DNA of 24,922 nt from positions 1-24,922 of IMG/VR virus record IMGVR_UViG_3300043468_000549, one strand, 5' to 3'. This DNA comes from a virus. A model generated the notes under the pieces. That model was given only the letters and a program-made list of their open reading frames with translations. It searched no databases and was not told the origin of the DNA. Positions within the stretch are counted from its first letter, which is position 1. Each line of letters opens with the position of its first letter. The translations under genes and the position numbers were made by a program. Shown here piece after piece: positions 4,757 through 9,552 of this stretch.

Positions 4757-6400
4757 TTAGCCAAGAATTGCTTTTTTTATGCGTGCCTCGTTGAACTTCC
4801 ACGTCAGCACGCAACTGGCGCGGTAGCGTGACATCCCGAACATGGGAACATCAGCCATGTGTTGACGCTGCGAGTCAGTGGGTGGCAACTTAATCCACGA
4901 CCGCGTTTTGCGCGAGTTCGCTCTGTCCCCGTTTCGCCTCAAGAAGTCGTCCGCTTGAGCCAGCGCGAGCTCCTTGGAGTTGGTGCGGGTTATGATGGTG
5001 ACCGCTCCACCGGTGACGCCGCCAATCGCGTTGTACACCTCCCCCAGCTTGATGACTGCGCCCCACGCCGTCAGCGCGTTCGCCATACGCACGGCGTCGC
5101 TGTACATCGACTCCCACCGGAAAGGTGACATCTCGATGATTTGCATCTCCGACATCTCGAAGGACTCGATGGTCTCAACACCGTTGACCCGCACGGGGAA
5201 GACGTACCCGCACACGGGGCAACTCCCGACCGCTGCCGGCACCTGAATGCCGCACTCGGGGCATTTCTTCATGGGTGCCTCGCCGGTCTCGCTCTGGCGA
5301 ACGAACAACCGGTCTCCCGCATCGATGTCACCGTGCGTGAGCAGCGATGCGCCGAAGTCCAGCACGATGCAATCGCTCTTAATCACGCCAGGGTATCGCT
5401 TCGCGTCGATGCACGGCCTGAGCCCTCGCCCGATCATCTGAATCATTGTGCTCTTCTGGCTGCACGGGCGCACCAGAACAACGCACCCCACACGCTGGCA
5501 GTCCCAGCCCTCCGTCAGCTTCATCACGTTGAGGAGCACCTTGATTTTGCCTTGGTCGAAGCGGCGCAGGATGGTGGCGTTGTCGTCGTCCGACATCTCG
5601 GAGTGGACGGCCTCGGCGGAGATACCGTCGTCGCGGAACGCCTCAGCCAAGTGTTGCGCGTGTTGGATGGTCGAGCAGAAGACCACGGAGGACCGGTCTG
5701 ACGCCTTCTCGCGCCAGTGCCTCAGAATCTCCGAGTGAACCGCACGCTTGTCCATGATGGCCTCGACTTCGCCCATGTCGAACTCTGCACCGGTCTTCTG
5801 CACGTTCTGGAGCTGGTCGTTGAGCCCGATGTCCATGCGGAACGCACGCGGCTGAACCAAGTTCCCCGCTGCGATAAGCTCGCCCACGGTGATTTTGTCG
5901 GCCACGTTGTTAAACACCGCCGTGAGCGCCTGCTTATCGCCTCGCTCAGGAGTTGCGGTGAGCCCCAAGATGACTCCTTTCGGAGACTTCTCGCGGAACG
6001 CCTCCACAATCCTCATGTAACTGTCAGCCGCTATGTGGTGGCACTCATCACAGAAGAGCGCCGACATCCCGCTTGGCATCGTTGCCAAGTTGAGCGGCCG
6101 GCACAGCGTCTGCACCATCCCGAAGGTCGCCCCGCTGGACCACGCCTTGCGTTCCGCGTTGAACACGTCCACCTTCGCGCCGGCGTTGTACCGCTTGAAG
6201 GTCTCCTTGTTTTGAGTAACGAGCTCGTCGCGGTGTTGAATGACGAGTACCGGTGCTTTCTTCACGAACGGCGCAAGGATTGCGCTGCCCATGACCGTCT
6301 TACCTGCGCCTGTTGGCGCGATGCCTAAAGTGTTGCCGCACTTGCCGAGTGCGTCGATACAGGCGTCAACGAACTGCGCCTGCCTTGGTCGTAAAATCAT
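4757..6400 (-). CDS. Superfamily-2 DNA helicase with zinc ribbon
   Basis: The 547-residue protein has the full SF2 set: Walker A APTGAGKT at 28-35, a DECH box at 118-121, LTATPER at 147-153, and motif VI QMIGRGLRP at 321-329. After the two RecA-like lobes comes a CPEC (380-383) and CPVC (394-397) zinc ribbon, then a C-terminal extension of unknown fold. Related phage enzymes resemble the RAD25/SSL2 and type III restriction helicases. It probably unwinds or remodels DNA in replication or recombination. The ATG at 6400 follows AAAGG; the longer start at 6460 would translate through the hairpin-rich leader. No nuclease or methylase domain accompanies it, so a restriction role is unlikely. Confidence 0.88.
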   Translation of the reverse strand: MILRPRQAQFVDACIDALGKCGNTLGIAPTGAGKTVMGSAILAPFVKKAPVLVIQHRDELVTQNKETFKRYNAGAKVDVFNAERKAWSSGATFGMVQTLCRPLNLATMPSGMSALFCDECHHIAADSYMRIVEAFREKSPKGVILGLTATPERGDKQALTAVFNNVADKITVGELIAAGNLVQPRAFRMDIGLNDQLQNVQKTGAEFDMGEVEAIMDKRAVHSEILRHWREKASDRSSVVFCSTIQHAQHLAEAFRDDGISAEAVHSEMSDDDNATILRRFDQGKIKVLLNVMKLTEGWDCQRVGCVVLVRPCSQKSTMIQMIGRGLRPCIDAKRYPGVIKSDCIVLDFGASLLTHGDIDAGDRLFVRQSETGEAPMKKCPECGIQVPAAVGSCPVCGYVFPVRVNGVETIESFEMSEMQIIEMSPFRWESMYSDAVRMANALTAWGAVIKLGEVYNAIGGVTGGAVTIITRTNSKELALAQADDFLRRNGDRANSRKTRSWIKLPPTDSQRQHMADVPMFGMSRYRASCVLTWKFNEARIKKAILG

Positions 6401-7144: not shown

Positions 7145-7987
7145 TTAGTGTTTTGCGGTGTCGATGCGTTTACCTGCGCGAATCTTGGCGAGCACCTTCC
7201 CAAGGTCAGCGGGTTCCTGAAGCTCCAGCGTGCCAGAGCGGTCTTTTGCGGGGTATCCCCACGGGTTCTGTTGGTGGCAGACAAAGGCGCGATACTGCGA
7301 CTTGTCCTCCGCCTCAAAGTTCTGGAGCGTCAGAACGAGGTCGAAGATACCAGGCAACTCGCGGCCCGTCTTCGAGCCCTCGATTTGAACGTCCCAGTAC
7401 TTCCTCTTCAACTCGTCTTCCTGCTGTTCCAGAATGCCCACCAGCACCACGTTCTTGTGGCAGTGCTGAAGCTGGGTCACCCAGCGAATCATCTCGCGTC
7501 CAAGAAGCCCATAGGCTCCACGGGTGTCGGGCTTGCCGGTCTTGTCGCTGAACGCCTCGGGCTGCTGCTGGCACCATGCAAAGCACATACGGCTTGCGAC
7601 GGTGATGGAGTCAACGAACAGCGTCTCGTACTGCTCATGCCCCGAGGCCGGCCCGAACGCCTTCACAACGGACTCATACGCTGCTTTGCTGTAGGAACCG
7701 TTGGCGTCCGCAGGATCGGGCCCACCGAGCCACAGGGCGATGGCCTTGGCCAGCTCCCACGGATGCGCGCCCATCTCGTTCGACGTCGCTCGGATGTCGA
7801 GGCAGTCGCCCTTCCAGTCTTTGCCAAGTGCCAGCGTACCGGCTTCGAGGTCAACGAACAGTGTGCTCTTCGCGTCCAGCGTGCGAGCTTGGTAGGTTTT
7901 ACCAACGCCGGCAGGGCCGAACACAACCGCTTTCACGCAGTCCGAGGTGCGCTTGAGGCGCTCGTCTGCTTTAATGATTTTGAGCAT
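7145..7987 (-). CDS. Sak4-like RecA-fold ATPase (AAA_24)
   Basis: The 280-residue protein carries Walker A GPAGVGKT at 24-31, a short strand with LFVDLEAGTLAL at 43-54, and Walker B TLFVDSIT at 122-129. Together these are typical of the phage AAA_24/Sak4 family, single-strand annealing or strand-exchange ATPases that work with a phage SSB. The partner SSB gene follows directly. The ATG overlaps the upstream gene's TAA (TAATG), so the two are probably translationally coupled. Length is normal for the family. It likely replaces a RecA, UvsX or Erf-type recombinase in this phage. Confidence 0.83.
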   Translation of the reverse strand: MLKIIKADERLKRTSDCVKAVVFGPAGVGKTYQARTLDAKSTLFVDLEAGTLALGKDWKGDCLDIRATSNEMGAHPWELAKAIALWLGGPDPADANGSYSKAAYESVVKAFGPASGHEQYETLFVDSITVASRMCFAWCQQQPEAFSDKTGKPDTRGAYGLLGREMIRWVTQLQHCHKNVVLVGILEQQEDELKRKYWDVQIEGSKTGRELPGIFDLVLTLQNFEAEDKSQYRAFVCHQQNPWGYPAKDRSGTLELQEPADLGKVLAKIRAGKRIDTAKH

Positions 7988-8385
7988 TACTTGAAGGAGA
8001 TACGGGGTTCGCTGAACTTGGTGGTGCGTGCTTCCATAACGCGGCGCAGAACGTCCTCGTTGCCGATGCGCTCGATGGTCTTTGCAGCCACCGAGAGCTT
8101 GGCGTTGATGAGCTCACGCGCATCCGCCAGAGGCAATGACTCGTACAAGGACTGCAACTTCCCCTGATCCCAGAGGTATGTCGCCTTCACCTCGTACTTC
8201 AGTTTCACGCCGTCAATCTCGGTGGATAGTTCACCGTAACCGCGTCCGCTTTCCTTCAGTAGGTTCTGAAGATTGGCCCCATGCTCTTGCATGATGGCTT
8301 CCTCCAGCGTCTTTATCTCATCTTCAAGGACGGAGATTTTGGTTAGCCGTTTGGCTATCTCGTCCCTCATTTTTTTTAGGTTCAT
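7987..8385 (-). CDS. Conserved phage protein next to Sak4, unknown function
   Basis: The 132-residue protein starts with a coiled-coil (MNLKKMRDEIAKRLTKISVL to about residue 35). It continues with a mixed domain containing YEVKATYLWDQGKLQSLYES and SVAAKTIERIGNEDVLRRVM, and ends TTKFSEPRISFK. Proteins of this build often lie just upstream of Sak4-type ATPases, so a helper role in recombination is possible, but I cannot assign one. An alternative ATG at 8370 (MRDEIAK) would shorten it by five residues. It overlaps the helix-turn-helix gene's end by 62 bases, unusually long for this genome. Confidence 0.68.
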   Translation of the reverse strand: MNLKKMRDEIAKRLTKISVLEDEIKTLEEAIMQEHGANLQNLLKESGRGYGELSTEIDGVKLKYEVKATYLWDQGKLQSLYESLPLADARELINAKLSVAAKTIERIGNEDVLRRVMEARTTKFSEPRISFK

Positions 8386-8620
8386 TTTCTAGTTCTCTTT
8401 TCAGTTTATGGCACACGTCTTCGAGTCGGAGCGACCAGCCTTCGTTGTGCGCCAACGCAACAAGCGCGGCGAACTTATCCAGCGGGATTTTCCGTCTGCG
8501 AACCCATGTTGATATTGTTCGCGGTTGCACAAGTACACCCGCCAACACCAACTTCTTCCAGAGCAGGTTCTTTCCCCCGAACCGGAAGACCATGTGCCTC
8601 GCATCGATTTGGTAGCTCAT
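8324..8620 (-). CDS. Helix-turn-helix DNA-binding protein, probable early regulator
   Basis: The 98-residue form starts at 8620 (MSYQIDARHMVFRFGG). Residues 20-50 have a Cro/YdaS-like helix-turn-helix look: KKLVLAGVLVQPRTISTWVR, then RRKIPLDKFAALVALA. A basic tail follows. The open frame continues to an ATG at 8662, but that start would place the palindromic operator candidates inside the gene, so the shorter form is preferred. No Shine-Dalgarno supports either start. It is the first gene of the recombination operon, divergent from a small + strand gene, and probably controls one or both. Confidence 0.66.
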   Translation of the reverse strand: MSYQIDARHMVFRFGGKNLLWKKLVLAGVLVQPRTISTWVRRRKIPLDKFAALVALAHNEGWSLRLEDVCHKLKRELENEPKKNEGRDSQTANQNLRP

Positions 8621-8636
8621 GGCGGGGATGAAGATG

Positions 8637-8697
8637 TACGCATTTTTTGCGTATCGCAACATCTTTTTTCATTTTGTCGCAAGACGCTTTCTCGCAA
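8637..8697. promoter_or_regulatory. Candidate operator region between divergent genes
   Basis: Two overlapping perfect inverted repeats sit here: TACGCA-N5-TGCGTA at 8637-8653 and TTGCG-N3-CGCAA at 8647-8659. The half-site TCGCAA recurs in direct orientation at 8654, 8677 and 8692. The cluster lies just upstream of the helix-turn-helix gene and of the + strand gene, so it is the expected target of that regulator. No strong promoter consensus was recognised. Confidence 0.6.
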
Positions 8698-8708
8698 CGT
8701 ATTGGCCC

Positions 8709-8942
8709 ATGGAACCAGTCTCTTTCGACACTCTCGTTCAGCGTTTCACCGGTGTTCACGGCATTCAGGCGGGTCTTCTTGTCCTTGCGCCCAAGGTGCA
8801 TTCCGACTCGGGGCCGATTGCAACCATGGGCAGCGCAATGCCGCCTGACACCATTATTCCCAAGGGCGCAGGGATTTACGACGAGAACGGTATGCTCCCG
8901 AAGATTGAAGGCAAGGGGCTGGAGTTTATCGCTTACGCCTAG
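8709..8942 (+). CDS. Small divergent protein, unknown function
   Basis: This 77-residue + strand frame starts MEPVSFDTLVQRFTGVHGIQ, continues with AGLLVLAPKVHSDSGPI and MPPDTIIPKGAGIYDENG, and ends KGLEFIAYA. It has balanced composition and natural codon use, whereas the opposing - strand frame looks random. The ATG at 8709 is preferred; a longer form from 8619 (MAGMKMYAFFAYRNIF) would use a start overlapping the other gene's start in the same CATG. No Shine-Dalgarno is seen. It converges on the lysozyme gene with a 17-base overlap. It may be a switch partner of the helix-turn-helix protein or a moron-type accessory gene. Confidence 0.6.
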   Translation: MEPVSFDTLVQRFTGVHGIQAGLLVLAPKVHSDSGPIATMGSAMPPDTIIPKGAGIYDENGMLPKIEGKGLEFIAYA

Positions 8943-9552
8943 GCTCAAGAGCATTCTCGAACAGGGCGGCTTCAGCGTCTCTGCGGCGTTGTAAGCCTTT
9001 GGTATTCGGCCACAAACGCTTCATCGACCGGATGAGTTCCGGTACGTCATAGAACCGGCGGTCGCGCATCGCGTTCTGGATGCCAAGCATCTCGGACCGC
9101 CTGTCCCCAGCGAGGGCTGTGCCACGGTTGAACACCAGCGAGATAAGAGCGTCCCGCGCCTCGTCTGGCAGGTCTTCGGCCTGCGGGTAAATGCGCAGCA
9201 TCCGCAGGTAAAACATGGGCAACGTGTTCTTCTGGAAGACATCAACGGCCTTCTGCCAAAGTACTACGACGGAACGCATTGTGGGCGAGGCGTGCAGGAG
9301 TTCACGGGCTGCGTTTGCCTTGACTCCGAGGGCGGCGGTGAGCGCAAGGTAATCGGACTCGGGGAGCAGTTCCTCCCACGCTTCCGAGAACTGTTGCGAT
9401 GTGGCGTAGCCCAAGTCGTAGCCAATTCCAATCGTGACGCCGCTTTGCTCCCCAGGCCACGTCGGGCTCTGAAGGAACTTGCGGTAGTACTCCTCACCGC
9501 CGCCCACCTCGAAATCAATGATCAGCTTTAGACCCGCGTCTGAGATGTTCAT
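8926..9552 (-). CDS. Endolysin, lysozyme-like
   Basis: The 208-residue protein starts MNISDAGLKLIIDFEVGGGE and continues to GVTIGIGYDLGY at about 39-50. This is the lysozyme-fold pattern with Glu15 as candidate catalytic acid and Thr40 in the TIGIGYD strand. The rest is helical (for example ALISLVFNRGTAL near 137-149), resembling pesticin-type or T4-type muramidases. It should cut peptidoglycan glycan strands at the end of infection. There is no signal peptide, so it needs a holin; the membrane-protein genes just upstream overlap it by ATGA and fit that role. Confidence 0.84.
   Translation of the reverse strand: MNISDAGLKLIIDFEVGGGEEYYRKFLQSPTWPGEQSGVTIGIGYDLGYATSQQFSEAWEELLPESDYLALTAALGVKANAARELLHASPTMRSVVVLWQKAVDVFQKNTLPMFYLRMLRIYPQAEDLPDEARDALISLVFNRGTALAGDRRSEMLGIQNAMRDRRFYDVPELIRSMKRLWPNTKGLQRRRDAEAALFENALEPRRKR

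Follow-up and report, generated by a model that had tools for sequence, protein, structure and literature searches.

All-helical Cro proteins of the N15, phiKO2 and P22 type are small single-domain helix-turn-helix (HTH) proteins with compact dyad operators of about 16-17 bp adjoining their genes. The operators of phiKO2 are 16 bp long, and in PMC4997575 its Cro is described as occupying a single site, OR3, with the suggestion that it does not act as an autorepressor; the operators of lambda Cro and CI are given there as 17 bp. Repressors of the mycobacteriophage L5 type have sites at more than one transcription unit, including their own upstream region. They recognize an asymmetric sequence (PMC9283540), and in the account of them in PMC6550527 there are as many as 30 sites per genome, whose motifs drift with the repressor.

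The locus analyzed here resembles each of these systems in some respects. A small single-domain HTH protein is encoded next to a compact dyad, which at 17 bp has the length of a lambda operator; sites are found at more than one transcription unit, one of them upstream of the HTH gene itself, and the motif drifts with the protein, as in the L5-type system. Unlike the all-helical Cro systems, this locus has no prophage repressor gene opposite, the divergent gene encoding 77 amino acids with no HTH family match; whereas phiKO2 Cro binds a single site, the targets proposed here are the protein's own promoter and a terminase junction; in contrast to L5-type stoperators the sites are symmetric, with one recurrent site at each of two junctions; and they are single sites without a CI-like partner, not tandem operators as in lambda. 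We consider it probable, from comparative sequence evidence, that the dyad is the operator of this Cro-like HTH protein, which would repress its own gene. A near copy of the dyad lies upstream of the gene that we call terS, and for it we favor a timing role of the protein, with early shut-off coupled to late control. In a limited open-licence literature search neither these phages nor any Cro-like operator located at a terminase junction came up.

The HTH gene, its neighbors and the repeats between them

The window, i.e. the whole stretch of DNA analyzed, is a 24,922-base IMG/VR virus record, classed as linear and presumably of freshwater origin, given the kind of metagenome. Family matches of its proteins comprise Hc3 head closure, DNA ejection, tail spikes, endolysin, Sak4, a Cas4-domain exonuclease, a helicase and a primase, from which we infer a short-tailed phage. 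Compared as a whole with annotated phages, the window matched one record, over 107 bp, and neither the HTH protein nor the 77-residue protein was matched among them. An 88-bp gap (8621-8708) separates the 98-codon HTH gene on the minus strand from the divergent 77-codon gene on the plus strand (Table 1).

Table 1. Features at and around the dyad (positions in the window)
Feature	Position	Strand	Evidence or remark
Putative 17-bp dyad operator, TACGCA-TTTTT-TGCGTA	8637..8653		conservation in the lineage; perfect dyads replacing it elsewhere; near copy upstream of terS
TTGCGA, possible -35 of the HTH promoter	8654..8659	-	by eye; right half of the second inverted repeat; invariant among 45 aligned sequences
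TACATC, weak possible -10	8633..8638	-	by eye; 15-bp spacer, 3/6 matches
A-rich tract AAAAAAGATG, possible upstream promoter element	8660..8672	-	invariant to 8669
Direct repeat of GCAA before the plus-strand gene, two copies with a 15-bp distance	8674..8699	+	
HTH protein gene, 98 residues, proposed autorepressor	8324..8620	-	AlphaFold2 model, N15 Cro match, family alignment
Next gene of the leftward operon, phrog_2480 family	7987..8385	-	
Sak4-like annealing protein gene	7145..7987	-	phrog_124, E 4.4e-39
Divergent 77-codon gene	8709..8942	+	codon-position changes; homologs in other contexts
Endolysin gene	8926..9552	-, opposite to the 77-codon gene	phrog_7, E 6.3e-07

The earlier note had reported two inverted repeats and three TCGCAA half-sites in the gap, and all of them are present where it placed them: the dyad itself, TTGCG-TAT-CGCAA at 8647-8659, which overlaps the right arm of the dyad, and TCGCAA on the plus strand at 8654, 8677 and 8692. 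The window holds a single exact copy of each inverted repeat, and the search for TTGCG-N3-CGCAA that the note had proposed found nothing in the window beyond 8647-8659. When the gap was subjected to 2,000 dinucleotide shuffles, a dyad with arms of at least 6 and a spacer of 0-8 appeared in 12% of them, a threefold TCGCAA in none of the 2,000, and any mixed 6-mer occurring threefold in 2.2%. The inverted repeats are not significant on the window alone; their significance comes from relatives. Further operator copies were searched for in the window with up to three mismatches, which gave 14 matches against 7.9 expected and no convincing second site.

The 77-codon gene is a real coding gene: in the tree described below its codon positions 1, 2 and 3 carry 46, 16 and 217 changes, respectively. 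The minus-strand frame opposite it (8475-8954) was rejected, since 217 of the 279 changes fall on third codon positions of the plus frame. The earlier note had read this gene as pointing toward the lysis genes, as the lysis side of a switch. This does not hold, as the endolysin gene is on the minus strand and the 77-codon gene, a lone gene on the other strand, converges on the lysis genes, with a 17-bp overlap at the endolysin gene's end; moreover, its homologs lie in unrelated places in other phages. Five relatives of the protein (L107, L126, L129, L133 and L135) are 53-85% identical in an alignment and occur in quite different contexts, by eye after major-capsid-like, tail-protein-like and terminase-small-like genes. 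The protein has no Pfam or PHROG family and no HTH family match, and its fold model (pLDDT 55) is too poor for use. The gene looks like a mobile small gene.

For the HTH protein, AlphaFold2 predicts a helical HTH domain (pLDDT 81) with helices at residues 7-13, 17-26, 33-42, 47-60, 66-69 and 71-79, the recognition helix being 33-42; in the model it is a small all-helical protein of 98 residues without a cleavage domain. The best match to a solved structure is N15 Cro, with a Foldseek E-value above 1 and a VIA Z of 6.3, which ties with other Xre proteins. No Pfam family scored above its curated cut-off, the only match being Phage_CI_repr (E 0.079, 13.7 bits against a cut-off of 22); the P22_Cro profile weakly matched two of 11 members of the HTH family (best E 0.0048), and a PDB profile search with the family gave no credible match. 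As these profile matches are weak, "Cro-like" refers here to the proposed mode of action and does not assign the protein to the Cro family. The bacterial genome collection, as far as searched, contained no relatives of the protein, prophage relatives included. Its distant homologs occupy the same slot before Sak4 and a phrog_2480-type gene (a likeness by position and by eye), and two of them, L185 and L193, face a tyrosine integrase gene (L185 4297-5223, L193 1-846), a hint that a lysogeny module was once present in the lineage at this junction, or was exchanged there.

The divergent arrangement and these integrase-facing homologs would fit a lysogeny switch of the classical kind, with the HTH protein and the product of the plus-strand gene as opposing regulators. 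We regard such a switch as highly improbable, given the unrelated places of the plus-strand gene's homologs, the want of an HTH fold (in a low-confidence model) or family in its product and the outcome of the bacterial search. Besides, no integrase, as the earlier note had seen, and no other lysogeny maintenance gene was recognized among the window proteins scanned.

Conservation of the dyad in three lineages

Of 95 relatives of the 77-residue protein we compared the loci of the best 80; all locus counts in this section refer to this set. An HTH gene is opposite in 61 of the 80, and these loci form three lineages of 48, 10 and three loci, with HTH proteins 56% (second) and 32-33% (third) identical to that of the window. 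In the first lineage TACGCA-N5-TGCGTA is exact in 46 of the 48 loci among the best 80 of 95; of the other two, L102 has one arm base changed and L103 has a deletion that takes out the dyad and leaves both genes. The second and third lineages have other perfect dyads at its position, GCGCGAA-N5-TTCGCGC in 10/10 loci and GCGAAA-N3-TTTCGC in 3/3 loci (again among the best 80 of 95). By eye, the dyad centers of the first two lineages coincide relative to the conserved flanks TTGC and TCATC, and the interval is one base shorter in the third. The recognition helix differs where the dyad differs. The core RCGMA-N5-TKCGY is found upstream in 60 of the 61 HTH-linked loci and in none of the 19 unlinked homologs of the plus-strand gene (best 80 of 95), counts that are partly circular, the core having been defined from these same sites. 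Loss of both inverted repeats where both genes are kept, which the earlier note had named as telling against an operator, is seen at one of the 61 linked loci (best 80 of 95), the deletion in L103. In that record the whole operator is naturally deleted between two intact genes, upstream of 5705; this could be an assembly artifact or a regulatory mutant.

A tree was built from 45 first-lineage sequences (33 distinct), with the window added and L059, L089, L090 and L098 dropped from the 48 for too little upstream DNA. In this tree the block 8637-8669 has one inferred change in 33 columns, and the rest of the gap averages 0.75 changes per column. Four-fold sites of the HTH gene show 1.0 changes on average, those of the next gene 2.5 and those of the plus-strand gene 3.57. 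Since the HTH gene itself is unusually slow, recent spread of the segment may add to the conservation of the block. The several-fold lower synonymous change of the HTH gene relative to its neighbors (8386-8620) suggests recent spread or an extra constraint at the nucleotide level.

Candidate promoter elements of the HTH gene lie around the dyad (Table 1). TTGC recurs at a nearly equal distance in the second and third lineages, and TTTTTTCATTT of the A-rich tract is common to the second lineage. A strict scan for sigma-70 promoters, which covered the window, terS and distant regions, was negative. An upstream overlapping minus-strand frame starting from ATGAAAAAA was rejected, its ATG being lost in many relatives, with changes at 8670-8671.

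The earlier note had treated the dense cluster as one unit, and it is conceivable that all 61 bp form a composite operator, the second inverted repeat and the TCGCAA half-sites binding further dimers. Indeed, TTGCG-N3-CGCAA is present in 47 of the 48 first-lineage loci (among the best 80 of 95), 8654-8669 is invariant and GCAA is largely kept in both right-hand copies. However, it is the 17-bp dyad alone that persists across lineages and at terS: the second inverted repeat is present at none of the 10 second-lineage and three third-lineage loci (among the best 80 of 95) and at none of the 19 terS sites described below; its half-site CGCAA does not fit YRCGMA-N5. Both right-hand copies (8674-8699) read CGTAA in the second lineage, and as TCGCAA they drift among relatives. 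We therefore think a composite operator quite unlikely. Confined to the closest relatives and absent from the terS sites, TTGCG-N3-CGCAA is probably an overlap of the right arm of the dyad with the next element, and the rest of the cluster outside the dyad is probably promoter sequence.

A second site upstream of terS

The name terS is ours and reflects a position ahead of the genes for the terminase large subunit (phrog_2) and the portal; the gene belongs to phrog_11043, a family without functional annotation. Searching 10 records for the first-lineage dyad with up to two mismatches recovered the known site in each and one-mismatch copies upstream of terS in three. The same search gave 26 forward matches against 21 for a control pattern, so the terS copies stand out by recurrence and place only. 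They lie outside the window, between the leftward terS and rightward genes, which in one record include a member of an anti-restriction family.

A search with the TerS protein gave 18 loci and six records, 13 of 19 records having no TerS match. The site is present in 19/19 distinct contigs with a related terS and upstream DNA, a count that leaves out L268 (no upstream DNA) and L271-L273 (distant TerS); at the latter, 3/3 distant terS loci, it is absent. In seven of the 19 contigs the shuffle probability was tested and amounts to 0.001-0.0095 per 200-bp terS upstream region. The HTH-promoter site and the terS site are both present in 9/9 records in which both genes were found, and apart from the operator with its TATC extension the control regions of the window and of G001 have no 8-mer in common. 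In L252, 37 bases separate the dyad from the assigned terS start codon and 86 separate it from the rightward ATG; in L265 the distance to the ATG is, by eye, about 56.

All sites, at the HTH promoter and at terS, fit RCGMA-N5-TKCGY. The arms are conserved and the five central bases vary (TTTTT, AAATT, AAAAG, AAGTT, AAAAA, AAAGT etc.), as expected of a dimer reading two half-sites. Among 11 distinct site forms (22 half-sites) C6, G5 and A3 are invariant, position 4 is C or A and position 7 is G or A. From these sequences the dyad core is most likely an operator, that of the adjacent HTH protein. Other matches to the core are mostly scattered, and the recurrent site is one at each of the two junctions. 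One perfect core match, GCGCAAGGATTGCGC at 6271-6285 of the window, which also occurs in seven of 22 other records, was considered as a further operator; it lies inside the helicase gene and was left as coding conservation. Right of the rightward genes L252 (6560-7700) and L254 (5540-6500) have a pyrimidine-rich, low-coding region with direct repeats of 64-105 nt, which could be an origin or termination region; core matches ACGCA-N5-TTCGC near it recur in several records.

The dyad might also act as an RNA hairpin in the transcript, a leader structure or a terminator, instead of a DNA operator. It folds as a hairpin of 6-7 bp in all three lineages, and a scan flagged TTGCGTATCGCAA with its T-run on the plus strand as terminator-like. 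The terminator-like repeat, however, is missing from the other lineages, the stability of the hairpin is barely above that of shuffles (z -0.2 to -1.8) and Rfam gave no match. The third-lineage terS site mispairs, with A opposite G at position 4, yet each of its half-sites fits the consensus. With the same element at two unrelated junctions, a hairpin function appears improbable.

In G010 and G011, the two second-lineage records with terS, the site before terS is the same as in the first-lineage records G001 and G004, respectively, and the HTH-promoter dyad is different; the flanks of the terS site are identical in G004 and G011. Shared terS sites next to differing HTH regions (G004/G011 and G001/G010) appear to be a sign of module exchange. 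As the second-lineage records carry a terS site like that of the first lineage, strict coevolution of protein and site is not apparent. The regulators may accept all of ACGCA, GCGCA and GCGAA as half-sites; alternatively, the terS site may be read by another protein.

Extended to both junctions, the latter option has another factor, a host regulator or a phage protein such as TerS, binding the dyad and the HTH protein acting elsewhere. Packaging signals often lie in the neighborhood of terS, and the second-lineage genomes, with the first lineage's terS site and not its HTH-promoter dyad, point the same way. Nevertheless we judge it unlikely: the site goes with the HTH gene in 60 of 61 loci (best 80 of 95) and is absent at the three distant terS loci, a single half-site pattern is common to all sites, and more distant HTH homologs have dyads at their own promoters. 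In L194 and L196 a perfect dyad lies over TTGAC-N17-GATAA, by eye six bases before the start codon, a motif that scores too low for the promoter scan. On the other side, the dyads of L194/195 and L196 each occur just once as an exact sequence in their records, and the segment of L185 that was searched lacks a perfect dyad of 5 or more.

A possible link between two phases of infection

The operator that the earlier note had placed between the HTH gene and the divergent gene is supported by the conservation of the dyad in relatives, and its suggestion of an early/late role rather than lysogeny is strengthened by the operator copy at the terminase (late-gene) junction. From these comparisons we infer binding, dimerization, promoters, repression and timing as follows. 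A dimer of the HTH protein would bind two half-sites YRCGMA separated by five variable, mostly A/T base pairs. As the dyad lies between the possible -35 and the weak -10, the bound dimer would block the promoter, and with it the leftward transcription of the regulator and of the recombination genes behind the HTH gene. The second operator, between terS and the rightward genes, would give the same protein a target in the packaging/late unit or in the rightward genes, which it could either repress or activate. One protein may link two phases of infection.

A more far-reaching model, which we hold to be rather unlikely, makes the Cro-like protein the clock of an integrase-less phage: it would repress the recombination operon and act with the opposite sign at the terminase junction, with a single protein level timing the early shut-off as well as the late onset. 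GCGCA, the half-site at terS, differs by one base from each lineage's own half-site, ACGCA or GCGAA. If the clock model is true, such a half-site would allow packaging modules to be exchanged among phages whose regulators differ in specificity.

The analysis provides a testable operator, a probable protein and a second target for uncultured phages that form a widespread group and have no close isolate in the searched collection. If the autorepressor reading with its terS site is true, the three lineages would be a natural series for the joint change of an HTH protein and its operator while a shared second site is still read, and the control of recombination and that of packaging would be tied to one small protein.
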